From Chloranthus sessilifolius (taxonomy: Eukaryota; Streptophyta; Magnoliopsida; Chloranthales; Chloranthaceae), in contig CM037587.1 of NCBI GenBank assembly GCA_021018995.1, positions 89,153,251 through 89,217,250 on the forward strand: a stretch of 64,000 bases of DNA. Reading direction: 5' to 3'. A program made the translations under genes and the position numbers. Below are positions 3,726-48,400 of the stretch, in pieces. Every line of letters begins with the position of its first letter. The stretch's first letter is position 1. The notes below the pieces were generated by a model. It was given only the letters and a program-made list of their open reading frames with translations. It was not told the origin of the DNA and did not search any database.

Positions 3726-3728
<3 letters not shown>

Positions 3729-3801
<73 letters not shown>
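3729..3801. repeat. (TA)n(TG)n microsatellite
   Basis: About 44 bases of alternating TA followed by about 28 bases of alternating TG inside LTR A. The other LTR copies lack it, so it expanded after insertion of A. The overlapping open frames are repeat artefacts. Confidence 0.95.
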
Positions 3802-3804
<3 letters not shown>

Positions 3805-4074
3805 ATACACGTAAACATAAACTTAGCCATAGTAGAGACCGCTTACGAGCGGGTTGATCGGGGTGCCTAACACCTTCTTGATCGATAACCGAAGCCCCTA
3901 CCCAAGAGCCTTTGGCCAAAATCGGTAAATCGGAGTCATATTTTTACACTTTAGTGCTCATATATCAATTTTGAGATATCCTGGGTCACCAAAAGCTCCA
4001 GGTGGTGACTCCATCCCTGACTTCTTTTAGTGAGCGCATCGTCACGACGGATTAATAAAATCCACGATTGCACA

Positions 4075-6354: not shown

Positions 6355-8821
6355 TGTTGGGGATTCTGAGTGTGCTTACTTTATTGGTTGGTGATAAAAA
6401 CAATTTAAAATCAAGGAAAGAGTAAAACGGGGGATGAAATCAGCACAACTAAGAAGTCCTAGACCTGCAAGATACAGGGTCCATTGTGGCAAGTTTTGAT
6501 AAGTAAGAGTTTGTCCCACAGGGAAAGATGATCCACAGCTCCAAGGGAGTCATCTCTAGTAGTCCTTCCAGATCTGACTACAGATCTGGCAATCCTTAAG
6601 GGAAGGGAGTTTAAGGTCACTTAGTTTACAGATCCTAAGGTAGCCTAATGTCTAAACTACAGAAAGGGTTAAGAGGATGGATGGAGTGTGGAAAATAAAT
6701 ATAAAAGGATGAGAAGTATGTTATTGAGCCTAGATCAGAGGAGTTTTGTAACTCAGATTCAGATCTGATGTTATAGAAATCTTGTCCAATGGCTACGTTA
6801 TCACCACTGAGGAGAAAGGATCCAACCCATCTCTCTGCCATGATTCAATCCCTTAAGGTTATAACCTGTCCACTCAAATGGTCACAGACTATCCCATAGG
6901 GGAACCACAATCCAGGGATGGGTCAAAACAAGTTAATCATTGTAGGCACTATTTCATCCAGGCTACCAGCTCAAGAATCCATAGGGAACCTCAACCTCTA
7001 AAGCTCTATGTGTGGGGCTAAGGCTGTATAGGACCATAATAGCCTAGACATATAGAACCAGCAAGAGATTGAGTACAACCTTCGATCTAGTTGTCCATTG
7101 CTTGAGTGAGGCTACAATGGTCCAGTCACAAGCCTATAATCTTTATAACCATATCAGATCTAACATCTGATAGCGGATCTGTATAAATATAGGGGAGTCT
7201 GCCTCTGTACAATCTCCCACCAGGCTAATACAAGCTCAGGTGCAAAGAAGAAGGATCCATCTTGGATCGGTGGATTAGAATCACCCTAAGGCTATAACCT
7301 TTCCACTTGAATGGTCACAGATTATCCCAGAGGCTATCCTCCTCACGGAGCTCAAGACAAAATAAGAATATTGCTGCCACCACCATGGTCACAAGGCTAC
7401 CAGCTCAAGCTCCCATGGGGATTTCAGATCTAGTGGGTCCTGTGGTGGGGCTAAGGCTGTATATGACCATGATAGCCTGCATAATACGTGTCACTTGGAT
7501 CTGAAAGTGGGTCTTATTAATCACCTCTCCATTGCTTAAATCACGCCAAAGCAATGGTGACCTTGCACGAGCGAATCATATTCAAACATAAATCCCACAA
7601 AGTACAAATCCTATTACAAAACTTCCATTAAACTAGTTCAAAATGCATACAAAGACATAGCCAGCAAGTGTTGGACTATGGAGAGAAGGAAAAAGAAAAA
7701 GAAAACTACTTACAGCTACAAAAGAAAAGAAAAACGATCTCAGATCAAATCTCCAAGAGATGAGAAGTGTTCCCAGATTTGTTCTAAGATTTTCCAGGAT
7801 GTCTAAACCTAAGCTAAGTATGGGTTTATATAGCAGTGGTGTGGCAGCGTATTAGGGTTAGGAAACCCTCACGTGGCCTAATAATGATCCTTGGATGCCT
7901 AAAGGCACGTGCACGGAGATTTAAGCATGGGAGTGCATGCCCTAATCGCTAGAAATTCCCAGAAGGTCCTCTGCTGAAGAGATGGAAGTTGAAGTTCAGA
8001 GCTTCGCTAGGTAGCTATTGTTTCCCAGACTTGTTGTGTGGTAGCTCTTGCTCTTCAGGAGGATGGTTTGACATTGAAGCTTCAACCGTTGCGAGGTTGC
8101 CTTGGTTTGCTCTTCAGGCAGTCGCGCGATAGAGAATTACACTCTCATTGGATTGGGCTTCGCGAGGTTGAGTAGACATCAAAGCCTCAGATGTCGCGGG
8201 GTTGGAGTTCACGCAGTTGCGAGGTAGCTGTGCATTCGCTGGGTTAATCTTCGCGAGGATGGCTCTGTCTTCGCAAGGATGCTTTCTTCTTGAATAGCGC
8301 GAGAACTGTGCGAGGAGTTCTCTTCTTCTAATATTTGCATCCCGCGGCTACTGCGAGACAGTTGTGCGAAGCGTCTTCTAAAGCTCTCTCTCCTCAGCCA
8401 TTCTGAGCGAACTGTGCGAGGTTGAGAGAGGTCTGCTTTTAACTATGCGAGACTATGCGATGTGTTCTACTCTTGAGCTTCGCGAGAGCTGCGCGAGTTT
8501 GTACTTCTGAAGCTCTTCAGTCACTCAACTGCGCGAGAAGTTGTTGTAAAGTCTTGAGAAGCTCAGTTGAACTGTGCAAGGCATATTTCTCCTGAATCCT
8601 CTAAAGCTTGGGTCAGCTGCGCGAGGCTCATTTCAGGTCTGGATTCAGAGTTCATCCTTCTGAGAGACTTCTGGTGCCAAAACAGGCTCCTTAGCAGGAT
8701 TCCTGGCCGTATTTCACTGCTGATTATTACCTACATAAAACAGTTAACAAGAACTTATTAGATGGCTAAGAGTCTAATCAAAGGTTAAGGGGTGAAAAGT
8801 GGTACTTTTCAGGTCTTAACA
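6355..8821 (-). mobile_element. Solo LTR E of the F family, inserted in element D
   Basis: This is the reverse complement of the LTRs of element F (32673-34716 and 43043-45490). On the plus strand it starts TGTTGGGGATT and ends CAGGTCTTAACA, so on its own strand it has TG...CA ends. Flanking 5-mers are ctcac (6350-6354) and cttac (8822-8826), a target duplication with one mismatch. The RT frame of D breaks exactly here, between the protease-side spacer and the block [20 protein letters not shown]-like ctatataaaccc on the minus strand lies near 7821-7834. No internal region is present: a solo LTR left by LTR-LTR recombination. Confidence 0.9.
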
Positions 8822-8826
8822 CTTAC

Positions 8827-25410: not shown

Positions 25411-25431
25411 GCAGTTCTCCTCCTGGCTCGA

Positions 25432-25911: not shown

Positions 25912-26012
25912 AAAACCAAGGATGAGAAGTTAAACCCATACCATGAACACCTCGAAGATCTGATAGCATGCTTTGACGATGTCACTTTCTCCTATGTCCC
26001 ACAAGCAAGAAA

Positions 26013-27420: not shown

Positions 27421-28054
27421 AGTATTGATAAGATGGATGCATGAATGCTTAAGGACCCCATAAAAGAGGTCATCATTTCAAAGCTAAGTAGTTAAAAAGT
27501 GTCCATGAATGCTTATAGCCTTTGCTACCCAATTCGAGCCTTTAGCCTTTCCTTCATTAACCCCTCCCAAAAAAAGGAAAAATGTGTGTATATACCAAAG
27601 AGAAAAAGAAAAAGAGTTATCATCAAAATCTTAAAAAAATCAGAAAAGTAAAATCTTAAAACGAGGATATCTAAAAAAAAAAAGTAAAAAGAACAAAAAA
27701 ATAGAAAAGAAAAGAGATAGAAAAATCATGGGGCATGTACAATAAAAATCCCCCAAGGAAGAAGTGTATTACGATAACTGGAACCCTATCGAGGAAACCT
27801 TTTAACCCAAGTATACCTTCAAAATTCTTAACCCACCCCTTTCAACCCATGGCCATAATCAATCCTCAGAGAAAGCCCTCTTTAAGGTCTATGAGCAATC
27901 ATAATATCCGTTAAGTTAGCACGAGCCAAGCTGAGAGACAACACAGAACTCCATCCAACCGGCTATGACGAAATCGACATCCATGTCATGGCCCTTGTTA
28001 TTGAAATAAAAAAATATATAAAATAAAAATGAAAATATACAATCTCAAAGTAAA

Positions 28055-28260
28055 ATGGACGTGGTGAAAATCTAAAAGGGCGCTACTGGTAAAAAGAGCG
28101 AGCTTATGCGGACCAGGCGAAAACTTGAAAAGGCATCTAGGGTAAAAATGCAAAAAACCCATGGACATAGCGAAAACCCGAAAGGGCACTACGGGTAAAA
28201 AAGAGGAAAATGATGGGCTTGGTGAAAACCTATCTTGGACGATGTGAGTAAAAAGGTTAG
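28055..28260 (+). repeat. Minisatellite in the 3' trailer of element B
   Basis: About four copies of the gtgaaaacctgaaagggcac-type unit, matching the array at 620-820 in position and unit but with copy-specific substitutions. Confidence 0.7.
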
Positions 28261-30228
28261 AAGAAAAAGAAAAAAAAAATCACCAGTTACTGCCGGGTCA
28301 CATACAAATTACCTGGTGGCCCATCGGGTCGCTCATGTTGGCTCAAAACGGGTCCTAACCAGGAATATCTTCATAACCGCACTGTCAAACGAATGACCTG
28401 AGGTAAGGATAAAAGGTTGATTCAATCCAAAGGAATAGACGTTCCAACCTTGGTAAAAATTTTGAGCGTCACTTAGGTCTAACCGCATGAACGGGTTCGA
28501 CTATGCTCAAAATAAGACTTGTCGCTTCGCCTTATTGTTAAGGCATCAAACAAAAAAGAAGAAAATAAAAACTCAAAAATACATATACCCCTTCCATATA
28601 CATATTTACAGCATCGTACTTCGATCTCAAAATGAAAAAAAAAAAATCTTTAAAAACAAAAATCCAAAAAAAAAAAATATATATATATATATATATAAAT
28701 CCTTAAAATGAAAAAATATAGGGTAAAGTTGCTTCTTCTGTTAATTAGGATGTATATTTTTTATCTGTATAAATAAAAAAGGGACTGACATTTTCTTAAG
28801 CAAGTGCAGGAACATTAAATGGTTGCCAGCCTCTAAGCAGGCAACCTCTCGGCAATGGGCAGAGCAAAGGAAGCAGCTCACAAGTCGCGTCGGTCTATTA
28901 AAAATAAATAAATAAATAAATAAAATAAAATAATGAAAAAAGTAATTATTTGAAAAAGAAAATAAGAAATATGTGTTTACGTTGTACTTTTTGGCGCACA
29001 GCTACGTACATGTGTGTTTCAAATGCGGTAAAATATCAATATTTTACCGGCAACGCAGCTGTGCTAAATTAATATCCTAAGTCTAAGGTTCGCTTTGGAT
29101 CTTTGAATCCTACTTTAAAGTAGGAACAACGGTGTCAATCCCAATAAGACAGTCAATGTTTCGATTGGGTTTATTCCACCGCTAAATCTTTATGTTGAGC
29201 GCTTCGTTTTTAGATTCATGTGAAATCAAGTGTCTTAAACTTCAAATTCCTCAGAAAAATGGGTCAATTGTTGGTTAAGACCAACCTGTCAAAAAGGAAA
29301 TTACCTATTGAATGACTATGTTCAAATATGCACTCAGAAGGGCTCATTCTAGGGTGCGGGCTTTGAAACTTGTATTTATATGGTATCCCTGTAAAGTGTA
29401 CGCCATGCGTCTGAGTATCCGTTGGATGATTGTTTATTCCCGTAAATAATGCCTGCATGAGATTTGGGACTGAACTTCCATTCCCTTTTAGTTTTATTTA
29501 CCCCTGATGTATGTATGTTTTTTACATAATTGTTCGTTTGCAAGATCATCATTAGTGGACACCAAGATTGAGTGCCTCCTTTGGTAGACGCCCAATTTTG
29601 GTCGGATCTGTTCCATATTATTTGAAGACTGGGTACTCTAGGTCATGTTGATCCAAGGCACATTATCAAAAGTGGCACACACTCCCAAAAAATATTGTGA
29701 CATCAATATTCGCTCCGCTCGGGTAGTTGTGCTAACTTATCTCCAGGATCGATAAGTTCGCTCAAAGATCTCAAACCCTACTTTGCATAGGAGCACCTGT
29801 GGCCGATCAAATGGGGCAATCAATGCCTCATGAGATTGGGAACAAACTGTGAATCTTCACGTCATTGCTTTACGCTAATCTTTAAGTATGGGTCGATCAC
29901 CCTCCCGCTCACGGGGCAGTCTTGTTCGAAATAAATCTTAAACATTGCGCATTTTTAAGTACACCATCATGGTTTTTCTCAATAATGTCGCTAAGCGCAT
30001 GGGTATCGGTAGCCTTGAGGAACGGACGTTTTCCCAAGTGTTGGGCTTACGCTACTCTCAAGTGACACATATTTTCCCAAGTGTTAGGCTTACGTCACTC
30101 TCTATTTAATTATTTTTTATTACTTTCTTGATGTTTGAGATTTGCTTCGAATATAGTAGACCCGTGAGCATTGCCTTGAGCCTCTTCGGATGTCTCTTTC
30201 TTTGGCATGCGATCACTAGTGATCGGAT

Positions 30229-30244
30229 ACCAAAGAGGGGCATC
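30229..30244 (+). other. Likely polypurine tract of Tat element B
   Basis: The stretch ccaaagaggggcatc immediately before the LTR; at element A the counterpart is ccaaagaggagcatc (2583-2598). Purine-rich second-strand primers next to the 3' LTR are required for LTR retrotransposons. Confidence 0.6.
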
Positions 30245-31721
30245 TATAGACACCCAATTTTGGCTCAAGGCTCGATCGACACATACTTCGAGCAAGGCGT
30301 ACCCCCCGAGCTTCCAAAAGCATCTCCCAAACCCTTAGGAATCATCCCAAAATCCTTAGGAATCATCTTGCCCTTAGGAATCAAACCTAGCCTTCCCCGA
30401 CCCATTAGAAACCTTCCCAGGCCCGATTCGAACCCTCCTGGGCAGTGGATAGAAAGAGGAGTGCTAAAGTTTTCATAGATCTCTGCTAGATCTGAGCCCT
30501 ATACCATAAGAAAGAGAATGTTCCCAGCTTTCCAATGAGCAAAGAATTGCCTCAATTTGAGTTGTATATCAAAAGTTCTGGCAATTTTAAAACTGTGCAG
30601 AAATGCAAGAAATTACACTAGCATGTATATTATACACGCTACGCCAATTTTTATACTCTCAGGGAATACTGTTCCCAAGCCTAGCGTGTATAATATACAC
30701 GCTAGGCTTAGGAATAGTAATTTTTGGGAAAATGTCCAGATTTCGAATTTAGAGTTTGACTTGTTGACCACCCCAAAGTCCGGGGTGAATTTCTTTAAGA
30801 CTATTGGACCCCTATTAATCCTATTTTCAACCCTTTAGCCATTTAAAGCCCTACCCTATCATCTACCATTAAACCCATTTTCCACCTATCTAAGCTCCCA
30901 AAACCCTAGAAAACCTTAGATCCCTATTACCTAATTGCTAACCCAATTAACCCTTTAGCCCTTCACTAATCGTCTCCTTTTCTATAAATAGAGAGTCATC
31001 CCCCCCCCCCCCCCCCTTGCTTAAGGGCTTAAAAATTTTCCAAAAGAGAGAAAATCCTATAGAGTTCTCTCTTCCGTTTTGAGCACTAAAACCTCCAAAA
31101 TTTTAGAACTAAGTTCACTCTTCTAGATCCCATTTTCTATTACAAAACCCTTAGATTTGTCTAGAACTAGGCCTTAGCCTTCTTGTCCTACCTTCTAGCT
31201 TCCAAGCCTTGGAGGTTCAAACCCATTCCTCAACCCATTTACTATTGGAAGCTCACCGGAAGAGCATCAACGCAAAGGTCCACAGCGGTGCTATAAGGGA
31301 CCGAGAGCTCTGGCTCTCCCCTCTATTCCTCTACCTTCTTTTCTTTTCTTCTATCCTAGAATTTGAGCCGTTACACCGCCGAAATTTCGGTGATTGCGAG
31401 GGGACTTAAATAGGATCGGAGTGCCTTCCGGCAAGGGGAAGTGTTATTCATTTTGTTTCTTTTTTATATTGTTTAGCCATAAGTAAAGACCACTTACGAG
31501 CGGGTTGATCGGGTGCCTAACACCTTTTTGATTGATAACCGAAACCCCTACCCAAGAGCCTTTGGCAAAGACCGATAAATCGGAGTCATATTTTTGCACT
31601 TCGATGCTTATGTATTAATTTTTGAGGTATCTCGGGTCACCAAAAGCTCTGGGTGGCGACTCCATATTTTTTTAGAAAGTGTGCATCGTCGCGACGGACC
31701 CACAAAGTCCACGATTGCACA
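30245..31721 (+). repeat. LTR shared between Tat elements B and C
   Basis: Starts TATAGACACCC and ends ACGATTGCACA; 1477 bp, collinear with LTR A. On its left is the 3' trailer of B with a purine tract; on its right is the 5' internal leader of C. It therefore serves both as 3' LTR of B and 5' LTR of C. A TATA-like ctataaatagag lies at 30982 and a run of 16-17 C at about 31001. Confidence 0.85.
30619..30711. repeat. Palindromes in the B/C LTR
   Basis: The dyad agcgtgtataatatacacgct occurs perfectly at about 30679-30700, with a diverged copy at about 30620-30640. It sits at the same distance from the LTR start as the different dyads in LTR A and LTR B 5'. Confidence 0.8.
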
Positions 31722-32672
31722 ATGGATTTTTGTGCCTTTATATAGAACAAAGGATTTCATTTATTTCTTCAAAAGTGTATCGGGATCCTACCGTGAGAGG
31801 CATTGGGGGTGAAAGCCACTCGAAAGGGAGTTCCCAAGACCCAAAAGAGCACCGTAAGAGGAAAGAGGTTCCAAAAAAAAAAATTCACTTCAAAAAAAAA
31901 AAATTTTAACAAAAAATAAATAAATAAATATATATATATATCCAAAAATCAACAAAAATCAACAAAAACCAAAAAATCAAAATCCAAAAAGAGTAAGTAG
32001 TATCGTATCTATGGCATCGCCAAACCTGTCCTCGTCCCGTAGGGAAGAAGAAGGAAAACATTCAGTCCATATCCGAAAAATCCTTACCGCACCAGCCAAC
32101 AAACCATATCTTGGGCGGTCGATCCAACCGCCTTTGATCCGGACTCATCCCCACCACATTCTCAATCAAAGGAGATTCCTATCTGCATTCGGCTCACCCA
32201 ACCCCCATTTATCATCACCAGCCCATTCAGTGAACCCAACTTTCCATCCACATCAACCACACCTCCACATACACCCCATTTTCGTTCCACATCCAATCCA
32301 AATCCACCCCATTTTTCTACAACCACCCAAGTCATGCCCAATTTTCCCCCATCCACTCCACATACACCCCGTTTTACACCCCATTTTTCACATACCTCCA
32401 CCCAAAATACACCCCATTTCTCTCCCACATCAACCCCAAATACACCTCATTTTCCCACACATCCAATTCAAATACACCTAATTTTCCCCCATCCACCCAA
32501 ATCATTCCCAATTATCCCTCATCCACACAAGTCATGCCCATTTTTCCCCATCAACACAGTCATGCCCAATTTTCCCCACACATCTACTCAGGTCATGCCC
32601 AATTTTTCTCATACAACCCCCTAATCAAAAGGGCTATCCACCTCCACTAACTCCATGGCCATGATGGATGAC
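31722..32672 (+). mobile_element. Tat-type element C, 5' internal part (before insertion F)
   Basis: Begins tggatttttgtgcc right after the LTR, as at 18858 in B. It then follows the B leader: the ggtatcgtatctatggcatc-like stretch and a G-poor, C-rich stretch with repeated caagtcatgcccaattttcc units (32331, 32520-32600). The frame 32011-32481 is proline/histidine-rich. It is interrupted by F immediately after atgac (32668-32672) and resumes at 45491. Confidence 0.8.
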
Positions 32673-33560
32673 TGTTAAGACCTGAAAAGTACCACTTTTC
32701 ACCCCTTAACTTAGCCTTTGATTAGACCCTTAGTCATCTAATAAATGCTTATTAAGTGTTTTCTGTAGGTAATAAACAGCACGGCAATAAGGCCATAAAT
32801 CCTACTAAGGAGCCTATGTTGGCACCAGAAGTCCCTCAGAAGAATGAACCATGAATCCAGACCATAGAAGAGCCTCGTGCAGCTGACAAAGCTCCAGAGG
32901 ATTCAGAAGAATACACTTCGCACAATCCTCGCGAAGTCCCAAGATTTCACGCAGCTCCCTGAGCTCAAGAAGACCCTCTCACCTCGCGCGATTCAAGTAA
33001 TGCCTTAGGAGAGAGAGCAGAATCCGCCACAGTGCCACGCACTAGCCGCGAGATGCAAATATCAAGAGAACCTGTCGCGCAGTTCAGGAAAGCCTCACGA
33101 GGATCCTCGCGAATATCCATTAAGAAATGAACTTCTTGCGTAGTTCTCGCGCTGTTCAGAAAGGAAGCAGTCTCGCAAAAGCTAGAATTAGCCTCGCAAA
33201 GTGAAATGGAATGCTCGCGCAGTTCTCGCGCTATTCACAATTATCAATCCAACTGCGCGAAGCCCAACCCAGTGAGAGCTCAACTGTCTACCTCACGACT
33301 GCTCAAAGCATCAAGAAGCTGTAACCCTGCGATGTCTGAAGCTTCAATGTTGAATTCAACCACGCGAAGATCAGAGTTACCATGCGACAAGTCTGGGAAT
33401 CGACTGCAACCTGGCAAAGCTCTGAACTCTAACTTCCATCATTCTGCAGAGGACCTTCAGGGGATTTCCAGCGATTAGGGCATGCACTCCCACGCTTAAA
33501 TCTTTGTACACGTGCCCCGAGGCATCAAGGATCACTATTTGGCCATGTGGCATCATTAAA

Positions 33561-33607
33561 ATTAGGGTTTCCTAACCCTAATGCGCCGCCACCCCACTGC
33601 TATATAA
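33561..33607 (+). promoter_or_regulatory. LTR promoter of F: inverted telo-box pair and TATA box
   Basis: attagggtttcctaaccctaat, written here as the two arms attagggttt and aaccctaat, is an imperfect palindrome of telo-box motifs (AAACCCTAA). It lies about 20 bases before ctatataaa at 33600. The 3' LTR has the same arrangement (43989-44036), and solo LTR E carries a related copy on the minus strand (7824-7872). Telo boxes are known near the start sites of plant housekeeping genes; a role here is inferred. Confidence 0.6.
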
Positions 33608-33806
33608 ACCCAAACTTAGTTTAGGTTTGATATCTTTGATTTTAACATAGACTTGATCTGAGATCGTTTTTTCTTTTCCTGTAACTGTAAGTAGTTTCTT
33701 TTTCTTCTTTTTCTTCTCTCCATGGCCCAGCATTTGCTGGCCATGCCCGTGTACGCTTATTGAAATTAGATTAATGGAGTTTTTGTGATAGGATTTTTAC
33801 TCTTAG

Positions 33807-33872
33807 GAGTCTACCTCTGCACAATCTCCTACCAGGCTTAACAGCTAAGGCTCGGGGAAGAAGGATCCATCT
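33807..33872 (-). repeat. Inverted LTR segment within the 5' LTR of F
   Basis: This piece is the reverse complement of 44581-44648 in the 3' LTR (shared core ctcggggaagaaggat). The roughly 345 bases that precede it in the 3' LTR (44236-44580) are missing. Solo LTR E keeps the 3' LTR arrangement, so the 5' LTR is the derived one. Confidence 0.85.
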
Positions 33873-34722
33873 CCCCATATAGTTGTATAGGCCCGCCATC
33901 AGATGTTAGATCTGATCTGGTTATGGAGATTGTAGGCTTGTGACTGGACCATTGCAACCCCACTCAAGCAATGGACAGCTAGATCTAAGGTGGTACTCAA
34001 CCTCTTGCTGGTTCTATGTGTCTGGGCTATCATGGTCCTATACAGCCTTAGCCCCACACATAGAGCTTTAGAGGTTGAGGTTCCCTATGGATTCCTAAGC
34101 TTTTGTAGCCTGGATGAAGCAGTGCCTACAATGATTAATTTGTTTTGACCCATCTCTGGGCTGTGGTTCCCCTATGGGATAGTCTGTGACCATTTAAGTG
34201 GACAGGTTATAACCTTAAGGGATCGGGTCATGGCACAGGGACGAGTTGGATTCTTTCTCCTCTTTGGTGATAATGTAGCCATTGGACAGGATTTCTATAA
34301 CATCAGATTTGAATCTAAGTTACAAAACTCTTCTGATCTAAACTCAATAACATATTTCTCACCCTTTTATATTTATTTTCCACACTTCATCCATCTTCTC
34401 AATCCTTTCTGTAGTTAATTCATTAGGCTAGCTTAGAATACTTAGGATAAGTGACCTTAAACTCCCCTCCTTTTAGGACTGCCAGATCTGTAGTCAAATC
34501 TGGAGGGACTACTAGAGATGGCTCCCTTGGAGCTGTAGATCACCTTTCCCTGTGGGACAAACTCTTACTTATCAAAACTTGCTACAAATGGACCCTGTAT
34601 CTTGCAGGTCTAGGATTTCTCAATTGTGCTTATTCCATCCCCTATTTTACTCTTTCTTTGATTTTAAATTGTTTTAACCACCAACAAATAAAGCAAGTAC
34701 ACTGAGATCTGCAACAAGTTTT

Positions 34723-34740
34723 TGGCGCCACTACCGGGGA
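34723..34740 (+). other. Primer-binding site of element F (tRNA-Asp-like)
   Basis: tggcgccactaccgggga, starting 6 bases after the LTR. It matches the complement of the plant tRNA-Asp 3' end at the outer blocks (tggcgcc and ccggggа-type end) with differences in the middle four bases. tRNA-Asp priming is typical of Athila elements. Confidence 0.75.
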
Positions 34741-35071
34741 AAGATGATCTATTAGTAGACCCTTAGTTTTTGTATTTTTAGTATTTTTTATAGATGTGAA
34801 TAATTGATACTGCTGATATAATTTTGAATCTTTCTTGCAGATCAAGACAACAACAGAGAAGGACATTGGACTGCATTTGGAGATTAGCTACCTCTGTTTG
34901 CAATTCTCTAACCTTTAACACCTAGTTTAGTTTCTTTGAAAATTATATAGCAGTTGTTTAATATAGTTGTAAATGTATGTCTTCTTAAATTAGCTGTAAA
35001 TTTGTTGAAAAATTCTTTGAATCAAGTGCAATGTGCATGCAAGGAGTTGTCCCTGCTAGTGGTGTGTTTGT

Positions 35072-36613
35072 ATGCTAGGTAGGAGGTCTCATAGTCCTAC
35101 TTTAGAGCCTTTCAACCCTGAGATAGAAAGGGGTAGAAAACTTGGCAGGAACAGGCACACCACAGTAGAGCCCCCAACTGAATCTGAGACAGTAATCATG
35201 GGTGAAGAACAACCCAGAACTCTCAAGGAGTTGAATGCTCCGGATGACTATAACTCTCCATTCAGCATTCAATTCCCTGATGTTCAAGGGAATTATGAGA
35301 TCAAAACTTCAATCATCCAGATGCTGCCCTCTTTCCATGGGCTCAGCAAGGAGGACCCTTATAAGCATATTGACCAATTTTTGGCCTTGTGCACCACTTT
35401 CAATATTGCTGGTTTGAGACCTGAGGCTACAAGGCTCAGGCTCTTTCCCTTCTCTCTGAAGGATAGGGCTAGTACCTAGTTGGCTACTCTTCTCAACAAT
35501 GGAATCACTACATGGAAAGTCCTGCAGACCAAGTTCCTGACAAAGTTCTTCCCTGAGACCAAAACTAGCCAGTTGAGGAAGGAGATTCTTGCTTTTGCTC
35601 AATCCCCAACTGAAGATTTTAATCAAGCCTGGGATAGGTTTAAGGAAATACTCAAACAATGCTCCCACCACAAGATCCCAGACTGGCAGCTTGTACAAAG
35701 CTTCTACAATGGGATTGATGAGAAAAATATAGATATGGTAGATGCCTCTTGTGGTGGAACCTACATGCACAAGACTGCTGATGAGGCATGGAAATTGTTT
35801 GAGGTGATTAGTGAAAATGCTTTTCAAAAACCATCCCTGGCAAGAACTACTCAGGAGTCTGAGTCAAAAGTGGGGCCTGCTACTGGGTCAAGAGGAAAAG
35901 TTTATGAGGTGTCTGGGAATAATGACCTGCAGCTGCAGATGGCAAACCTCTCAGGGAAGTTTGAAAAATTACTGACTGTGATATAACCCAGAAGGGCTGC
36001 TCAAGTGGGGGAGGCATGTCTGATATGCCAGTCCCCACAGCACACAGTAGAGGAATGTCCATCTACAGGGCAATATCCTGAATTGGTTTTGGAATATGCT
36101 GTTGCTGCTCAATCTTATGGCCAGCAACAATCTGGGGACTACAATAGATAGCCATATGGATACCAGCACCAAAATATTGGTTACCAATGGAGAGACCACC
36201 CAAATCTGAGGTGGAGGCAAGACAATTACATGCAGCCCCAGCATATGTTGGCCTTACCCCAAAGGCCACAGCAGCAGTTCAACCAAGGATATGTCCCTAG
36301 GTCTAATTTCCAGCACCAACAGCGGCCCCATCAGCAACAAAATCAATTGGTCTTACCCTCATCTCAGCCCAGGAATACTTCTTTCGAGGACCAGGTCTTG
36401 ACCTCACTGTAAAACCTAGGGTCCTTGGCTCAGACTGTGAATTCTCATGGTCAGAGCATAAAGAAGTTGGAAGAGCAGCTAGGCCAAATATCGAATGTCT
36501 TAGCTAAAAGAGAAGAGGAAAGGTTGCCCAGCCAGCCAGTGGTAAATCCCAAGGGCCAATTTTTGATTGGTGAAGGATCCTCAAACCCTGAGGGGCAGGG
36601 GGATCTTTCATGA
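35072..36613 (+). pseudogene. Gag of element F, one frame with four stop codons
   Basis: A single frame of 513 codons from ATG 35072 to TGA 36611-36613, free of frameshifts but with in-frame stops at 35477 (TAG), 35984 (TAA), 36149 (TAG) and 36410 (TAA). Residues about 60-235 are a Retrotrans_gag domain (FHGLSKEDPYKHIDQFLALC; FFPETKTSQLRKEILAFAQ). Near residue 315 a CX2CX4HX4C zinc knuckle (CLICQSPQHTVEEC) is intact. The C-terminal part is glutamine-rich (QQQSGDYNR, QRPQQQFNQGY). All four stops can derive from CAG/CAA glutamine codons by C-to-T change. The gag ends where pol would be expected to start. Confidence 0.9.
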
Positions 36614-37510
36614 AATTGATTCACAAATCTGTGCATGGTGTATGTTATGTATTTTAGTATGGTTTGTTCTTTTTACTATTTTTAGGAAATTTTAGTGAAC
36701 TTGTCAGAGTTTGAATGTATATGATCTGAACAATTCATCTGCTTGCTTTGCTTCTGGTCTCCTTTGAATTAATGCTTGTGAATGAATGAATGATGATTAG
36801 ATTGTGTGATTATGAGAATGCTTTTTTTTTGCTTGTTGTTGGATATGAGGTTCTAATTAGATGCTTTTTGGAGCAATTGCATGATTCATTATTGGGAAAG
36901 CATAGAGAGTCCTGTTGTGAATGTATAAGGGTGCCCCGGACGAGAGCCTGTGAGAGAATCCACCCACAAAGCTAAGGTCAAAGGCTGACTGGTGGGTGTG
37001 TGCATTTTTAACTCTGTTTAAGCCGTCGCGCGGTTCTGAAGATGTGGCTTGGCTCCCTCTCGCGCAGATCATAAGGAACTGCTATGATGTCGCGCATTTC
37101 AAACGCTGTTGTGTGAATTCCTCAAGCAGTTTGGATGGCCATCCAACCTCGTGACCCACTCACTTCTATCCAGCGAGCAGATCATTTCAAAGCGCGCCAA
37201 GCCTCGCGATTTATATAAGCCAACCCCTCGTTGCTTGCCTTTTATATTTTCTCTTTCTTCTCCAGCCAGCGAAACCCTAGCTCTGACTCCCATTAATCTC
37301 TCTCCTCCAGCATCCAGCTTACAATCCATCATTCACCTTCTCATTCTGGGGATTTGTTCCTAAAGCCTCTTCCACCAGTTGCCCCCTACTCAGAACTCTC
37401 ACGGTCTCTTACACATCAGATTAAACAGAACCCTAATTTTTAGGGTAAGCCTCAGCTCTCAACCTTTATTTTTCAGTTTGCCAACTACCACTCACAGAGG
37501 AGAAGTTCCA
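36614..37510 (+). promoter_or_regulatory. Spacer with promoter-like block before ORF2
   Basis: The first 400 bases are AT-rich and non-coding, with no pol remnant. From about 37020 to 37200 words such as tcgcgcgg, ctcgcgcag and gtcgcgca recur, resembling the LTR. A TATA-like ttatataagc follows at 37211, then pyrimidine-rich sequence, telo-box-like aaaccctag (37272) and aaccctaat (37431), and the first ATG of ORF2 at 37511. The spacing is that of an internal promoter with a leader of roughly 250 bases. Confidence 0.5.
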
Positions 37511-40500
37511 TGGCCCCTAAGAGTGCACCTGTGAAAAGAGCAAGGGATAAGGCTCCCATTGAGCCCACTCCCAAGAAAGCCAAGTACTCTGAGGCGCCAC
37601 AAAAAGGGAAGGAGGTGATTTAGAATGTGGCTGCGCTACAACCTGATTATTCTACACCCTCTGAGCTCCTGACTCCCATTCCCTTGGAGCCTGAAGCCGT
37701 TTTTTACCTCTCTTTCTTTGAAACGAAGCCTCTGTTAGCCCCTACCATTGAGTTTATCCGTAAAGCTGGTTTGACCCCGCTGCTGCAAGCTACCCTGCAC
37801 TAGCCTACCCTAGACTAGTATAACTCTTTTACCAGCACATTAGGGCTAGACCAGACCATCGTGGACAGCCATGCCTCCTAGTGTTGGTTGACAATTTTGA
37901 CATATTACTCAACCCTGAGTTGATTGCTAAAGTAATGGGTATCCCTGCTATTTTTAACCCCAACTGTGGTTATGGCCCCCCTCTGTGTGCCCCTATTGAT
38001 ACCATTGCACAAGCCCTTACCAGAGGGTTGAAGGCCACAGGGGATTCCATCAGGAGAAGAGATCTAGACCCCAAACTCCTGTTCATTGATCAAGTTCTCC
38101 GAAAGAACATCTATTATGCCGGCCATCAGCAGGAGAGGAGGACCTCAATTGTTGATGCTCTCTATTCCTTCTCTCGGGGCCACGGATTCCATGCTGCCAG
38201 GTTGATATTTGAGGCCATGAAGGATATTATGGTGAAAATAGGGCACAAGAAGAAGCTCCACACTCTCCCCTATGCAAAGCTCATCACTAAATTGCTCTTG
38301 AGGGGAGGGTACAAGATATCAGTGGGGGAGTTAACTATTGACCTCCCCCCTACCACTTTCGCAAAGCGACAATGGGGAATCAGCAGGAGTCTGATGGATC
38401 CCAGCAAGAAGAAGAAAGCTCAGACTGCTTCTGAGAAAGGAGAGGGGACTGCTGCTGCGAAGACCACCCCTGCTCCCAAAAAGGTGGCTAAAGCTCCTGC
38501 TTCCAAGAGAGTGGTGCAAGCTCCGGTCACTTCTGCTTCTGCAGCAATACCCCCATCCACCACACCTACCCCTCCATCCGTTTCTTTTCCTCTTCCATCT
38601 CTCCCTTTCCCTCTTTTATCTGCCTTTTCCATACCCACTCCCGAATTCCCTGTGATTCGTTCCTGGGAGGAAAGTGTTGGCCCCCATGGCATCCCCCTAC
38701 CTTCTCCCACATTGCCTCAGTACACACCCCCAATTCCCCCACCATCTGAACTAAACCCTGACAGCCCTCCCTTGATAACCTATCTTAAAAAGAAACCCTC
38801 TCACACAACCCCTGCCATATCTTCACCTACCCCAACCACCCCTATCATTCCCACAGACACACCACATATTGACCAACCCTTCGTCCAACCCCTCCCAACT
38901 ACATCGCCACTCCCAAATCTTGACTTTAACCTCGCCACTACTTCAGGATATCAAGCCTTCATGACCACCTTGCTTGACACCCTACCAACACATGATATCC
39001 CTCTCCCAGATTCTCCACTTCCTTCCCCACATCACTCACCAGACCCTCCATCTTCTCCTACAACATTCCACCATGCCCCTACTTCCTCTTTCCAACCTGT
39101 TGCCTCTTCTTCTCACACTCTACCCCAACCAAACTCAGACACACTTACCCATATCCTTTCCCTCATACACGACATTCAGACCCAACTCTCCAACACAACA
39201 CATACCCAAGACCAAATGCAAACTGACATCACCAACATCAAATCCACCCTTCACACATTGACAAAACCACACATCTCTGCACAACCACCTTCTACCCCAC
39301 AACTCCAGTCCCCTTCCACTTCTGCCTCCACAGTCCAACCAGACCTCCACCCCCTTGACTTACCTCCAACCCTCCCCTTCCAAGACACCATACCCCACCA
39401 TTCCTTCCCCACTTTACCTATCCTTCCCCCATTCATATTACCTCCCCCCCACTTTTCCCCCCCCCCCCCCCAAACAGACCCCCTTCCCTTCCCATCCACC
39501 TTTCCCATTACCACCCCCACATTTTTCACCCCACCATTACCTTTCCGACCCTTCACCATTCCATCTTTCACTTACCCCACCATTACCTTTTCGACCCTTC
39601 ACCACCAACCTTGGTGACCCCCTTCATTTACTTTCCCACCCATGTCTTCCATCCCCTCTTATCCTACCCCTCCTCATTCCACTAACCACTCCACACAAAC
39701 CGAGATGTAACCTTCTCCCCCCTCCTCATCTAGACTTCACCTGCTGCATTACTTTACCCCCACAGGACCAATCACCTTCTACTTCTTCCACTCCCTTTCT
39801 CCCTATTTTACCAAGGCATTCATACTACACCCCTCCTTACTTCACCCTCCTCCATGCCATGCGGGACAATGCCTACATTAAGAGGGATGCTCTTCATGGC
39901 ATGGCCCAACTTCGACAAGCCATCGAATACCCCTTGCTGCAGAAAATGAGTGACTTGAAGCTTGCTCACAGAGAGCAGCTGCGAGATATTTTCAAGGGGT
40001 GGGAGAGTATTTTGGAGACCCTCACTGCGGCAAAGGCTGCTGCTACTTACTACAAACTAAATGCGGAGATGGAGAAGGGCAATGCCGAGCTGGCGCAGAA
40101 GAGAACCCGGATGTTGAAAAATAGACTGCACAATGCTGAGGAGATCCACAGGCTCACTAAGGGGCTTTCTGATGCCAACCTCCTTTATGCTGAAAAGCAG
40201 ATAGAAATTTTGCAAAAAAGGGTGGCATCGCTGTCAGGCCAACCATTTGAGGTCACCCCTCTGGCTACAGCACCCCCCGAGGCCCCACCTTCCACACCCC
40301 CCGGGCCATCATCTTCCATTCCCCCTGCTCCTCCATCTACATCCCCTGCTCCTGCCCCTCCTACACAAGTACCTCCACCACCTCCACCATTAGTGCCTCC
40401 CCCTGCTACATCTCCTACACCTAAGCGAAAAAGGGCTGCTCCCAAGAAACCTTCTCCCTCCAAACGAGCCACAGCTGCCCAAAAAGGTAAAAAGCCTGCA

Positions 40501-41133
40501 CCTCAATCCCCACCACCAAAGGCCACCAGAGCTTCTGCTCAGGATCACCCCCATGGTCAGTTGCTTTCCAAAGATGAACGCAGACAGGCTGATGCAACCC
40601 TTGGATTGTATCCCACTGCTCTTTTCCCCTCTGATTCAGATTCTAACTCTGCCCCGCCTGTGGCTCCAAGTGCTCCTCCTTCTTCCGCCACTACTGAGCA
40701 AACTTATCCTTAGCAAAGGAAAGTTACTGCCAAGAGGACTACTCGCCCAACTGCCTCACTGAAAATTGGAAAAGAACAATCTGCCCAGTCTGAGGAGGCA
40801 CCACCACTGACCCAGAAAGATAAAGGCAAGGGCCCAGTTGTCCCTCCAGAGCCAGTCAAGGCAAAAGCTACTCTTATTCCCCCTCCGACTCAGAAAGGGC
40901 AAGCCTCCAAAGGGAAGATCCCCAAAGGAAAGAGTCCCATCAAATCCCCTGAGCCCACCACTGACAAATCTTTCGCAATCCCTCCTGAAGCAAAGACCAG
41001 AAAAATGAGGGTCCGGGCACCAACCAAGCCCAAAACTGACGCCCAAAGAAAGGAAGAGCGAGAACGAAAGAAGAAAGAGGAAGAGGCTCTCCTTCAAGCG
41101 CATGCCAAGCAGATGGGTTGGGACCGATTTTGA
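37511..41133 (+). pseudogene. ORF2 of element F: plant transposon protein domain with proline-rich linker and basic tail
   Basis: Begins MAPKSAPVKRARDK at 37511 and ends KQMGWDRF at 41133, about 1,200 codons, broken by a few stops (37621, 37801, 37813, 40711) and two frameshifts (near 37875 and near the poly-C run at 39457-39472). The N-terminal third (to about 38400) contains FDILLNPELIAKVMGIP and RRTSIVDALYSFSRGHGFHA. This resembles the putative plant transposon protein domain (Pfam PF20167 type) found downstream of pol in Athila-like elements. About 38430-39850 is Pro/Ser/Thr-rich. 39850-40230 is a charged helical, probably coiled-coil, segment (MEKGNAELAQKRTRMLKN). The tail is Lys/Pro-rich with KRKRAAPKKPSPSKRA, a likely nuclear signal. 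Function unknown. Confidence 0.75.
39457..39472 (+). repeat. Poly-C tract at an ORF2 frameshift
   Basis: About 16 consecutive C. The frame used upstream (to 39617) and the frame used downstream (open from 39355) differ by one and overlap around this run, so a length change of the run is the simplest cause of the shift. Confidence 0.8.
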
Positions 41134-43030
41134 TTCACCCTCTGATTAGCTTGTACTTGGGATTTTTGCTTCTTCTGCATTTCTTTTTCACTTTTTTTCA
41201 TTCATTTTGTACATTTCTATCATATAATAGATTGTCTTCTTTTGTCTTTCTTATTTTTCGTTGTCTTTTGTCTGTGTGTTCAATGTTATGTCCTTTTAGT
41301 ATGCTTTAATAATTCTGCTACACATACACCTTTGAACCAGTGTGGACACTACTCCTCATAGGTTTGGGGGTGTGGCAGGCAGCCCCTGCCAATGGAATAG
41401 TTAACCTAAGTGCAGCAGAATCCTGTGAGTAATATGGAAATGGAACCATGTTCACTAGAGAATCTGAAAAATAATGAAATTTAAAATTTCTTTCCAGACT
41501 TTAGGCATTATAAGCTTGTAATATTCCACATTTCCATGATAATATCACCAAGGATACTCACTTGTACCAGCACTTAGTGAATCACTAGAGAGAGAAAAAG
41601 GTAAGGACATACTTAAGAATTCAAAGGAAGACCATAACCAGTGAGATTTGGGCCTATACAAAAAAATTTCCTTGAGGAGTGACTAAGGCAATTTCTTCTA
41701 GCCCTAAGAACTAGCGGAGTCACTATGCTCACTAGAAGTTAGGCAACTCCAAGTTGAAACAACTGACAGTACTCATGATACTTAAGAAAGGATCAAGGCC
41801 TTCTGTTGGACAGTTTGAGCCTAAATAGACCAACCTGAAGCAACTGCCCTTGTTCATACCCCCTTTGAGCTTTAAATCCTAAATTTCTTTAAAATGCACC
41901 TGAGTACTTATACCTGAACCTAATTATCTGATTTAACCCTACCCTCACTCTGAGAATTCATAAGGTAAAGGAGAAAGAGTTGAAGATAGACTAGCTATGG
42001 TCAACATTAGGTGAATAAAGAAAAAATACCTCAAAATTCTGGCAGTGTGGCAACTGAAAAAAAAATGGTGGTATTTCAGAAAAGCAAAAACAAAATTTTT
42101 AAAAAAAAAAAAAAAAAAAAAATGCATCAAAAAGAAGCAAAAATAATAATGAAGAGGAGTAAGAGAGGAGTCAAGAGGGAACTTTCATTGGAAAAATTAA
42201 AATCAAGAAGAGAAACTGATTACTTCAAATCTGAAAACCTCAAAGAAAATGAAAGGAGCTGAATTAAAGAAGGTGAAGTCATGAATCATCTCCATCACCT
42301 ACTAATTTCTCAAGTTTGCACCCCTTTTCAACCTTCCATTCTTTTTAACCCCACTCCATAAGCCACATTACAACCCAGCTAAAAGCCCTTGTGATCCAAA
42401 GTTGAGTGAGCTGCCATGTGGAGATGAAGAGTTACCCAATCTATGGTAAGGATCTGTCAATGATGCCAGAACTTCATAGCTATGCCTATGCTCATGCTTA
42501 CAGACCCATTTGGGGGATGTAACTGCTCTTGAGCTTGAGAAAAAATAAGACCCTCAACAGTTCTTTATGAGAGTATGCCCTGGAGAGTTTTTGGTCTGAT
42601 CTTGAATGCATTAGGTGTGACCTACAACCTAAATCTTGATCCAGTGATGACCTTAATGTTGACACTCCTGTGTAGTGTCTTTGGTGTAAACTGATTGGAA
42701 ATGTTGTGCTTTCATGAAAAGCTTATACTATTTAAATGTCTGTGCAGCCATTGTGTTTAAATTTCTTTTATTCCTACTGATTCAAAGGTGAACCAACTCT
42801 GTTTCTTGACTGTTCATCTGATAAATTGCACTTTTGTTAGCTGCTTCATTGTGAAGTTTGTGGGTGTCTTCATTGAAAACCCTCAGGAGACTTCACTCCT
42901 CCACTAGGGATCACCTAGGGGTTTAAAAGGCTTAGTACATATGCTAAATATATCCGTGCTCCCTACGAAAGTGGTATTTTAATTCTATAATTGATTTAGT
43001 GTAGCTTTGCTAAGGGACTAGCAAAGATTA
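41134..43030 (+). other. 3' untranslated region of element F
   Basis: No coding frame. Contains a polypurine-like ggtttgggggtgtgg at 41363, a poly-A run at about 42099-42121 with a lysine-rich artefact frame, and otherwise unique AT-rich sequence. Confidence 0.75.
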
Positions 43031-43042
43031 GGTTTGGGGGTG
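43031..43042 (+). other. Polypurine tract of element F
   Basis: aggtttgggggtg directly before the 3' LTR at 43043. The same purine block recurs at 41363, 1.7 kb upstream. Confidence 0.85.
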
Positions 43043-45490
43043 TGTTAAGACCTGAAAAGTACCACTTTTCACCCCTTAACTTAGCCTTTGATTAGACCCT
43101 TAGCCATCTAATAAATGCTTGTTAAGTGTTTTCTGTAGGTAATAAACAGCAGGGCAATAAGGCCATAAATCCTGCTAAGGAGCCTGTGTTGGCACCAGAA
43201 GTCCCTCAGAAGAATGAACCATGAATCCAGACCATAGAAGAGCCTCGCGCAGCTGACAAAGCTCCAAAGGATTCAGAAGAATACACTTCGCGCAGTCCTC
43301 ACGAAGTCCCAAGATTTCACAAGCAAGCTCTCGCGCAGTAGAGTGATGGAAGAGCTTCAGAAGCCATGAGTCACACAGCTCCCGTGCAGTTCAAGAAGAC
43401 CCTCTCACTCTCGGCTCGCATGCGCAATACCGAGAGAGAGAGCTTGATCTTGCCTCTCGCTGCACACTGGCCAGACACTATCAAGAGAACCTATCACGCA
43501 GTTCAGGAAAGCCTCAAAGCCTCGCGAGGATCCTCGCGAAGATCCATTAACAAATGAACTTCTCGCGCAGTTCTCACGCTATTCAGAAAGGAAGCAGTCT
43601 CGTGAAAGATAGAATTAGCCTCGCAAAGTGAAATGGAATGCTCGCGCAATTCTCGCGCTATTCACAATTATCAATCCAACTACGCAAAGCCCAACCTAGC
43701 GAGAGCTCAACTGTTTACCTCGCGACTGCTCAAAGCATCAAGAAGCTGCAACCCTGCGATGTCTGAAGCTTCAATGTTGAATTCAACCACACGAAGACCA
43801 GAGCTACCACGCGACAAGTCTGGGAATCGACTGCAACCTGGCGAAGCTCTGAACTCTAACTTCCATCATTCTGCAGAGGACTTTCTAGGGATTTCCAGCG
43901 ATTAGGGCATGCACTCCCACGCTCAAATCTTCGTGCACACACCCTGAGGCATCCAAGGATCACTATTCGGCCATGTGGCATCATTAAAATTAGGGTTTCC
44001 TAACCCTAATGCGCCGCCATCCCACTGCTATATAAACCCAAACTTAGTTTAGGTTTGATATCTTAGATTTTAACATAGACTTGATCTGAGATCGTTTTTT
44101 CTTTTCCTGTAACTGTAAGTAGTTTCTTTTTCTTCTTTTTCTTCTCTCCATGGCCTAGCATTTGCTGGCCATGTCTGTGTACGCTTATTGAAATTAGATT
44201 AATGGAGTTTTTGTGATAGGATTTTTACTCTTATGGGATTTGTGTATTTGTGAGTTGTTTTGTGCAAGGCTGCTGCCTTGAGATCCGCCATTGCTTTGGC
44301 TGTGTTTCAAAGTAATGGAGGACTGATTTTAAGGATCCACTCAGATTCAAGTGACCTGTGTGTCTGGGCTATCATGGTCCTTTACAGCCTTAGCCCCACC
44401 ACAGGATCTACTAGATCTGAAATTCTCATGGGAACCTGAGCTTGTAGCCTTGTGACCATGGTGGTGGCAGCAATTAACTTGTTTTGTCTTGGGCTCCGTG
44501 AGGAGGATAGCCTCTGGGATAGTCTGTGACCATTTAAGTGCACAGGTTATAGCCTTAGGGTGAATCCAATTCGCCGATCTAAGATGTATCCTTCTTCCCC
44601 GAGCCTGAGCTGTTAAGCCTGGTAGGAGATTGTGCAGAGGCAGACTCCCCATATAGTTGTATAGACCCTCCATCAAATGTTAGATCTGATCTGGTTATGG
44701 AGATTGTAGGCTTGTGACTGGACCATTGCAGCCCCACTCAAGCAATGGACAGCTAGATCTAAGGTGGTACTCAACCTCTTGCTGGTTCTATGTGTCTGGG
44801 CTATCATGGTCCTATACAGCCTTAGCCCCACACATAGAGCTTTAGAGGTTGAGGTTCCCTATGGATTCCTGAGCTTTTATAGCCTGGATGAAGTAGTGCC
44901 TACAATGATTAATTTGTTTTGACCCATCTCTGGGCTGTGGTTCCCCTATGGGATAGTCTGTGACCATTTAAGTGGACAGGTTATAACCTTAAGGGATCAG
45001 GTCATGGCATAGGGACGAGTTGGATTCTTTCTCCTCTTTGGTGATAATGTAGCCATTGGACAGGATTTCTATAACATCAGATCTGAATCTGAGTTACAAA
45101 ACTCCTCTGATCTAGACTCAATAACATATTTCTCACCCTTTTATATTTATTTTCCACACTTCATCCATCTTCTCAATCCTTTCTGTAGTTAATTCATTAG
45201 GCTAGCTTAGAATACTTAGAATAAGTGACCTTAAACTCCCCTCCTTTTAGGACTGCCAGATCTGTAGTCAGATCTGGAGGGACTACTAGATATGGCTCCC
45301 TTGGAGCTGTAGATCACCTTTCCCTGTGGGACAAACTCTTACTTATCAAAACTTGCTACAAATGGACCCTGTATCTTGCAGGTCTTGGATTTCTCAGTTG
45401 TGCTGATTCCATCCCCTGTTTTACTCTTTCTTTGATTTTAAATTGTTTTAACCACCAACAAATAAAGCAAGCACACTGAGATCTGCAACA
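43043..45490 (+). repeat. 3' LTR of element F
   Basis: 2448 bp, TGTTAAGACC to GCAACA, followed by target duplication atgac at 45491-45495. TATA-like sequence at 44028. It keeps the segments deleted or inverted in the 5' LTR (near 43325-43375 and 44236-44648), as does solo LTR E, and therefore represents the ancestral arrangement. Confidence 0.95.
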
Positions 45491-48400
45491 ATGACATGGT
45501 GAGGGCATATACTGCTTGGAAGGTCACCCAAAGCCTTCCTCATTTACCCCAAATACCAATAAAGCCTCCAAAATCTCTACACACCCCATTCCCCCAAAAT
45601 CTCAATCAACCACCCAAGGCCCCTCCCATCAACCATGGGGCCATCCGAGTGGGCCTCAAAGGCCCAACACCCAATCCCAAGTCCATTTAGGCTCAAACTT
45701 GAGAGTGACATTTTCAAACCCTCCATCATTACCCCAATTTCCCACATACACCTACACCCAACAAGCCTCCATTTCCTGCCAAATAATAAACTCATCTCAT
45801 CCAATCCCCCAAGCCAGCATAAGCCGCATTCATCCATATTCCTCTCACATTATCCAATATGGGAATCCATCCCAAACCATCAACCAGTCCCAATTTACCC
45901 ATCCACTCTCTCTCTAATCCAATCAGCAAAATTCTCATCAAACTCAGTGGTCACACCAAGCACCCATTCAACCTGCCCTACAAACCTATCACCTATCCCC
46001 TTGCGCTACAAACCCATCACCAAAGCTTCCCTCACTTACAATAGCTTAACCAGGCACCCATCTAACCTATGTTGAATCAGCAAGATAACCTCATTCCTCC
46101 CCCATTCATTGATACGGGTAACCAATATGAGGAGGATGAGGCCCGAAATAGTGGGGCCTATATAGGGGCACTTGCCAATTTTATCCCTCCACAACCCACC
46201 TTTACCAACCCACGGACTATTTAGAATGAAGGGGGATAGCAATTGGGGGACTAGCCCCAGCATTGCCCTCAAGAGAGTCAAAACTGCTAAAAGAATAAAA
46301 AGATAAAATCTAAAAGCAGTTGATGAAGCTAGGGGGGACTGAGATCCACGCCACAGATTTTTCAGATCTATGTCTATTTGTCGAGGTGTCTTTGTCACCT
46401 AAATTCAAAGTATCATCATTCAAAAAATACAACGGCACCGGCAACTTTATTGCACACCTCAAGTCATATTGTGGGGACATGTGTCAGTACGGTGGAGATG
46501 AACGACTCCTCATCAAAGTATTTCAAAAGAGTCACCAGGTCAGCTTTGAGGTGGTTCACCTCTCTTGAACTATCTATGATAAAAACTTGGAAAGACCTCA
46601 CCCACTTGTTTCAAGAACAATATGTCTACAACATGGACATTGGGCAGCGCAAGTCTGATCTGGCCCGTCTGAGGCAGAAACTCAATGAGACGTTTAACGA
46701 ATACCTTGGAAGGTGGAGGGCCCTAGCATCCCAAGTAAGGAACCGCATCCCGGACGAGGAGCAAATCAAGATGATCTCAAAAACCGTCCTACCCATTATC
46801 TCTGATTTTCTGGCATACCAGCAGCAAGCCAATTTTATTGATTTGGTAAAGAACGCCAACCGCTGTGAAGACACGATAAGAGAGAGGTGGTTAAACAAAC
46901 ATACAACCAATGGAACCACTGGGGCTCGTAAATTCACCGAGCAGAGAACTGAGAGAAGAGCAGGGGCAGAGGTTCAAACTATAATGACCACGCTGTCCAA
47001 CACTAGCATGGTAACTTTTCGGTTTGTGACAGCACAGCCAGCACCAGCACCAACAAATCAGGCTCCAAGGCAGAACAATGTCCCCTAGGGGCAGCAGACC
47101 TCTGAGCAAAGAAGGGCCTGCCTTAACTGAGTATTCACTTTGTTGGGGCAATTTAGTCAGGCAGCAGACCGCCTTACTAATCGAAAAAGGCTTAGTCACT
47201 CGGCTTTAGCCGCAATCCCTGTCGAATCCAATTCCAAGAAATTATGACCCCAATACACACTGTAGTTTTTACTAGGAATCGGGGCATCCTATTGATCGGT
47301 GCTTTCCTTTGAAGCACGCAATAGAGGATTTAATAGAGGGAGAAAAGATCATCCCTCCAACACCTCCCCAAGCAAATCCCCATACCAGTATACTGCAGGT
47401 GCCATTACCACTGCATCCACAAGGGGGAATGGGCCCAAGGGCTACCATCAACATGATGGAGAGGGAAGCAAATGAATTTGACCCCTCCAAATACATCATC
47501 GGAGGAGAAAGCCCTGCATTGCCCAGACAAAGGGATCAAGAAAGAGAGACGATAGGGGTGGTTGAACCCTTGTGTTAGGCGATTATTTTTCGAGCCCAAC
47601 ACCCTAGGTAGTGTCTTTAGATTTAAGGCTATACCTCCCGACACCCACGCCTGTTAGCCACATTCAGCCTAGTTGGACCCCACCTCCACAATACCAATTA
47701 TATCTTACATTGACCCCCTCAATTATATGATGCCCAATTTTTCCTCGCCTTCTGAGTCAACTCCCGTCAACCACATTTGGCCCCATTTCGCCACACTATC
47801 ATCAGCCCATCTACCTTCAACTCCCGCACCAACCCAATGCAGTTGGCCTAGTATTATCGCACTGCCACCAGTATATTCAACTCCAACACCAACCCAATGC
47901 AGTTGGCCCAATTTTGCCACATCATCATTAGTCCAGCCACTTCCTGTACCAATTAACCATATTTGGCCGAGCATTGCCACACCAACCCCGCCAGATATTC
48001 AGCATCTCCATCCGCCCTATTTCAAATTCCCGGACTAGCATATGATCCCCATCAGGTCCCGCTCAACTACGAACAAACTGATGCCAATATTGGTGGCACC
48101 AATATCGGGGAAGTAGAATTCATTACAAGACCAAACAGCCAGAAGTGTCAACACCGACCCAACCAGAAGAAAGAAAGGAACTCATGACAGTGCATCTTAT
48201 GGAGAGAATGAGCAGGGAGTATGCGTTAAAAACTCAGCTAAGAAGAACTCCAGCGCATATCATCATCTGGGACTTGCTGATGACATCACCACCATACTTT
48301 AAAGCTCTAATGGTGGCCTTAAAAGATGCACGTGTATCCGATAAAGTCTCCCCAGATAAAGTAGGGCAAATGATTGGCCATGTATTGGCCCATAAAGTCA

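Follow-up and report, generated by a model that had tools for sequence, protein, structure and literature searches.

Can a plant retrotransposon of the Athila type keep gag and a second long gene while lacking pol, and how would that second gene be expressed? This question is raised by an element, here called F, at positions 32673 to 45490 of a 64,000-nucleotide stretch of the Chloranthus sessilifolius genome, which we refer to as the window (GenBank assembly GCA_021018995.1, contig CM037587.1, forward-strand positions 89,153,251 to 89,217,250). F is a real element with two long terminal repeats (LTRs), a gag gene and a downstream open reading frame (ORF2). The pieces scanned contain no detectable pol, and a short motif occurs both in the LTRs and upstream of ORF2. 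F is broken rather than intact, and its layout is not new. The account that we favor, with moderate confidence, is that F represents, in decayed form, a non-autonomous Athila-type family that has gag and ORF2 but not pol, that its enzymes would act in trans, and that ORF2 is probably expressed from an internal promoter.

A broken element without detectable pol

The structural features of F are given below in window coordinates, with the basis of each call.

32668..32672, no strand: target-site duplication ATGAC, left copy (read from the sequence)
32673..34716, plus strand: 5' LTR (LTR comparison)
34723..34740, plus strand: primer-binding-site-like sequence beginning TGGCGCC (sequence)
35072..36613, plus strand: gag reading frame interrupted by premature stops at four positions, 35477, 35984, 36149 and 36410 (ORF list, Pfam, frame analysis)
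37510..40713, plus strand: ORF2, broken, from an ATG at 37510 to its end at 40713 (ORF list, frame analysis, Pfam)
43031..43042, plus strand: G-rich tract adjoining the 3' LTR, a weak polypurine tract (sequence)
43043..45490, plus strand: 3' LTR (LTR comparison)
45491..45495, no strand: target-site duplication ATGAC, right copy (read from the sequence)

The original prediction, made from the letters alone, had given F intact ends, an exact 5-bp target-site duplication and a primer site, and all three are present: both LTRs have the termini TGTTAAG...CAACA, ATGAC stands on both flanks, and a primer-site-like sequence starts at 34723. The latter may be of the tRNA-Asp type, as it agrees imperfectly, at about 15 of 18 positions by rough count, with a tRNA-Asp end. 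This type is reported for Calypso and Diaspora, where the site lies at 5 bp; the TGGCGCC of F begins 6 nt past the end of the 5' LTR. A polypurine tract had also been claimed, and a G-rich tract does precede the 3' LTR, which we call weak because it is interrupted by TTT.

The gag frame is free of frameshifts, as predicted, but contains four in-frame stops ahead of its end at 36611. The other two frames across the same interval have 26 and 41 stops, and we therefore take the frame for a true gene that has since decayed. Part of it (approximately 35495–35719) matches Retrotrans_gag PF03732 (E=1.8e-16), which we take to be typical of Ty3/gypsy elements, and the motif scan located a CCHC zinc knuckle at 36017. 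The Athila ORF-1 domain PF03078 was not among the Pfam matches of F pieces (E<=5 or E<=1); it is reported for 16% of Athila elements and so is not a required feature of the lineage. A protein search with the gag piece returned no relative at E<=0.001 among 13 candidates, from a collection that may hold few plants.

ORF2 had been described as an open frame of 1,200 codons, and this did not hold. It spans approximately 1,070 codons in pieces that lie in two frames, with stops at 37621 and 37801 and open stretches at 37824–39617 in one frame and 39262–40713 in another, implying at least two frame changes, one before 37824 and one between 39262 and 39617.

The predicted absence of reverse transcriptase, RNase H, integrase and protease was borne out in the pieces scanned. 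We compared with Pfam 12 gag/ORF2 pieces (4 at E<=1 and 8 at E<=5, three of the latter overlapping the first 4) and 7 other interior pieces (E<=1), all from the plus strand and not including every short piece, and none matched a pol family. As a positive control, three pol pieces of the window's other element (24634–26367) matched RVT_1, RNase H and RVT_3; the same three pieces gave no tblastn hit in the F interior at E<=10. A six-frame motif scan of F found the zinc knuckle only and no reverse transcriptase, integrase or protease pattern, a result that is weak alone, as its strict patterns for reverse transcriptase and integrase likewise detected nothing in the decayed region used as control.

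The combination of gag with an Athila-type ORF2 and no pol had been proposed as a distinct configuration. The same layout has been on record in Arabidopsis Athila since 2008, including the X81801 family (PMC2410132): seven of the 11 tabulated families lack pol, and five of these seven (II, IIIa, IVc, Va (X81801) and VI) keep gag and a downstream env ORF. F resembles these five in its LTRs, its gag, its lack of pol and its ORF downstream of gag, in sense orientation on the plus strand. Their gag-to-ORF gap is 0.7–2.1 kb and they depend on outside enzymes (PMC2410132); from gag stop to ORF2 start F has 896 nt, as compared to 708 nt in X81801, calculated from published positions. In the original prediction the retention of gag and ORF2 suggested that both would act in cis for packaging. 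Both ORFs of pol-less Athila are under purifying selection, with action for the element itself or in trans left open, and mobilization in trans is considered the simplest account of these elements (PMC2410132). F differs in being broken and in its longer LTRs, 2.0 and 2.4 kb against roughly 1.3–1.8 kb (PMC2410132). Its ORF2 is proline-rich, contains a basic stretch, lacks a strong membrane segment, and is likened to the Arabidopsis ORFs by layout, not by sequence. It is reasonable to read F as a non-autonomous, pol-less element with gag and ORF2 whose mobilization would depend on enzymes supplied from outside.

Alternatively, F may carry a private deletion in a family that has pol between gag and ORF2, in which case its internal promoter would simply be the env promoter that an autonomous Athila normally has. 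F is the only copy whose interior is visible, the related copy E being a solo LTR, and a deletion ending upstream of a promoter such as the one reported for the Athila6A ENV ORF (PMC4977677) would resemble F. The match of the F layout to published pol-less families speaks against a private deletion, as does the statement that pol-less elements were never observed within pol-bearing families (PMC2410132). We consider such a deletion unlikely, although it is the most serious of the alternatives.

A motif shared by the U3 regions and the region upstream of ORF2

The sequence between gag and ORF2 contains a block, overlooked in the first reading, that appears promoter-like. The features that bear on it are as follows, where U3 denotes the unique 3' region of an LTR.

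6355..8821, minus strand: solo LTR E, assigned to an older and related subfamily, U3 with 11 CGCG cores, flanks GTAAG and GTGAG (LTR comparison)
32930..33366, plus strand: CGCG array (CTCGCGMAG type) in the U3 of the F 5' LTR, with 11 cores; a TATA box lies downstream at 33601 (motif counts)
37027..37208, plus strand: CpG-rich block with six CGCG cores and CTCGCGCAG, the motif of the U3 arrays, at 37059 (motif counts, matrix scan)
37212..37219, plus strand: TATA box TATATAAG (sequence, motif counts)
43246..43813, plus strand: CGCG array in the U3 of the F 3' LTR, 10 cores, TATA box at 44029 (motif counts)

All 27 CGCG cores of F fall in the two U3 regions (11 and 10) or in the block upstream of ORF2 (6); the window outside F has 33, of which 11 are in the U3 of E. 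Between gag and ORF2 (36614–37509) the six cores compare with 0.55 expected, and 0 of 300 shuffles had as many. CpG observed/expected ratios follow the same division, with 0.78 and 0.75 in the F U3 regions, 0.74 in that of E and 0.98 at 36980–37211, whereas gag has 0.05, ORF2 0.24, the parts of the F LTRs downstream of the TATA box 0.15 and 0.12, and the window beyond F and E 0.58. The repeated motif is CTCGCGMAG, and its form CTCGCGCAG occurs eight times in the window (0.03 expected): three times in the U3 of E, once and three times in those of F, and at 37059. All eight copies are in sense orientation relative to their element, and none was found elsewhere in the window.

Because the motif was first noticed in F, we trained a matrix on the U3 of E alone (11 CGCG sites, including two that overlap, and no letters of F) and scanned both strands of the window with all three LTRs masked (113,946 positions). 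The sites at 37054 and 37020 ranked first and second, with scores of 17.8 and 14.3 against 11.3 for the best site elsewhere, and the region between the two ORFs of F contained 6 of the top 15. Of the 27 nine-base words that recur in the U3 of E, CTCGCGCAG is the only one present on the plus strand of the F interior, where it lies inside the block; three of the 27 each have a single occurrence in the rest of the window. The sharing could be due to chance or to mere CpG-rich sequence: it comes from one element, testing began only after the CGCG core had caught attention in F, no alignment extends beyond the motif, and with a CpG ratio of 0.58 in the rest of the window the contrast arises partly from strong CpG loss elsewhere in F. 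The top two ranks of the matrix that had seen no F letters and the absence of CTCGCGCAG from the rest of the window argue otherwise, and we regard either origin as improbable. A relic LTR in the inter-ORF block was also considered and is not supported, as 47, 14, 59 and 76 of 100 shuffles aligned as well in four comparisons.

Immediately downstream of the block, TATATAAG is the only TATAWAWR on the plus strand of the 8.3-kb F interior, which is not rarer than chance alone would give. The leader that follows is pyrimidine-rich, with a AAACCCTA box at 37272 and no ATG between 37245 and 37509. This TATA box, AAACCCTA box and ATG-free leader resemble those of a plant gene, as they would if ORF2 were not an Athila 3' ORF but a host gene, captured by transduction along with its promoter and leader. 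Against this, the motif upstream is one that the U3 regions of the same family carry, and PF20167, weakly matched by ORF2, occurs in a sunflower Athila 3' ORF (PMC11728184). Capture of a host gene is the least probable of the alternatives, and a very unlikely one.

The similarity of the sunflower 3' ORF to PF20167 is itself partial (PMC11728184). In F the ORF2 N-terminus matches this domain weakly (E=2e-5, 25 bits) and the longer ORF2 piece scores 18.1 bits only. The middle of ORF2 is proline-rich, and a basic KRKR stretch (40423) lies in its end part. Hydropathy over 19 residues peaks at 1.53, in a segment that contains proline, and ORF2 is thus without a clear membrane anchor. By these features the product would resemble a nuclear accessory protein more than an envelope. 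No relatives of the two ORF2 pieces were found at E<=0.001 (7,990 and 76 candidates scored, from the same protein collection) and none among viral contigs, from 5 pattern matches. A single-sequence structure prediction of the N-terminal piece gave a mean pLDDT (predicted local distance difference test) of 38.9.

Several observations count against the favored account. Taken alone, the internal TATA box could well arise by chance (153 of 300 shuffles), and TATATAAR is overrepresented in the window (27 versus 7.7 expected). The 16 ten-base words repeated in the U3 of E are all absent from the F interior, and shuffled sequence aligns locally with the LTRs as well as the inter-ORF region does; the shared signal is therefore a short motif only. 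Just 5 of the 11 CGCG cores of E have an aligned counterpart in one or the other F LTR, so that the sites are poorly conserved in place and turn over. The core was chosen after it had been seen in F, despite the use of a matrix from E alone, and the PF20167 match lies under the curated cut-off of 45 bits. With one interior seen, a lack of pol across the family can only be presumed.

LTR decay and neighboring repeats

The LTR pair of F has a Kimura two-parameter (K2P) divergence of 0.073 over 2,037 sites, or 0.038 over 1,694 sites when CpG sites and 15 bases on each side of gaps are left out. CpG sites diverge far more (K2P 0.354) than non-CpG sites (0.054), and 58 of the 111 LTR changes polarized with E as the outgroup are C to T or G to A, the pattern expected from decay of methylated DNA. 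At a substitution rate of 1.5e-8, which is that of Brassicaceae (PMC2410132) and may not be that of the host, the age would be approximately 1.3–2.4 million years, to be taken as a scale only. The U3 middle is the most divergent part (windows with K2P 0.19–0.23); exchange between LTRs is not needed as its source because CpG sites diverge far faster and indels cluster there.

Within the 5' LTR a 67-bp segment (33806–33872) is inverted relative to the 3' LTR (44582–44648, 95.5% identity) and adjoins a deletion of about 0.35 kb, which we describe as a local inversion-deletion. The 3' LTR contains an old tandem duplication (44356–44560 and 44788–44994, about 432 bp apart, 75% identical), with matching pieces in E at 7284–7477 and 6842–7050. 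E had been put forward as a further family member and proved real, its flanks being alike at 4 of 5 positions. It interrupts a minus-strand reading frame (8822–8998) of another minus-strand element that by eye resembles a gypsy reverse transcriptase.

Elsewhere in the window, direct repeats at 110–3972 and 27521–31622 (76–93% identical, 27.4–27.7 kb apart) look like the LTRs of a large outer element, and a decayed reverse transcriptase/RNase H of a plus-strand retroelement lies at 24634–26370. Related stretches at 20514–20779 and 46266–46531 are 76% identical, the second overlapping a long reading frame (46333–47088) that is gag-like by eye.

Two proposed promoters and expression of the 3' gene

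According to the favored account, the genomic RNA of F would start at the LTR TATA box and serve for the synthesis of Gag, and reverse transcriptase and integrase would be supplied in trans by a pol-bearing relative. ORF2 probably comes from a separate transcript, initiated at a putative internal promoter with the TATA box at 37212 and the upstream motif common to the U3 regions, and the shared motif could switch on gag and ORF2 together without splicing. F would have decayed after insertion, mostly by C-to-T and G-to-A changes.

Parts of this arrangement have counterparts in other elements. Athila6A has a named ENV ORF promoter (PMC4977677), comparable to the internal promoter predicted for the 3' ORF of F. 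The available part of that report mentions no motif shared with the LTR, and it treats full-length Athila6A as autonomous. Sireviruses have repeated, mostly CpG-forming motifs in their LTRs and in the region upstream of env (PMC2829016), and F likewise has repeats of a CpG-forming motif both ahead of its LTR TATA box and ahead of its 3' ORF. Sireviruses differ in being Ty1/copia elements with palindromic motifs of mostly CGG-CCG core, and their env promoter is not conclusively identified in the source (PMC2829016). The Grande gene23 is, like ORF2, a 3' accessory gene for which a promoter of its own is described, and its product is nuclear; unlike ORF2 it lies antisense to gag-pol, in an element with gag-pol (PMC7264820). 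The legume Ty3/gypsy ORF of the same name, "ORF2", was set aside as a parallel, being antisense to gag-pol (PMC4093653). TR-GAG elements resemble F in keeping gag and losing the enzymes, and one transposes in ddm1; the mobile one is an ATCOPIA63 copy (PMC8704663). In TR-GAG elements gag is the single ORF, and F has ORF2 in addition.

We propose, tentatively and as rather less probable than the favored account itself, a two-promoter program in a pol-less Athila-type Ty3/gypsy family. CTCGCG(C/A)AG, placed in U3 and before the internal TATA box, would allow one host factor to switch on genome RNA and ORF2 together. This would parallel, in Ty3/gypsy, what is seen in Sireviruses, with ORF2 encoding not an envelope but an accessory protein under joint control.

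How plant 3' env-like genes are expressed is unsettled, with splicing, stop suppression and internal promoters all proposed (PMC2829016). An internal promoter is reported in the Athila lineage; a link to the LTR was not found in the available parts of those sources, and the open-licence literature yielded no report of an LTR motif common to an Athila internal promoter. The shared promoter motif seems to be the fresh feature of F and the part worth following, as a motif common to the LTR and the inner promoter offers a direct and cheap reporter test of 3' gene expression.

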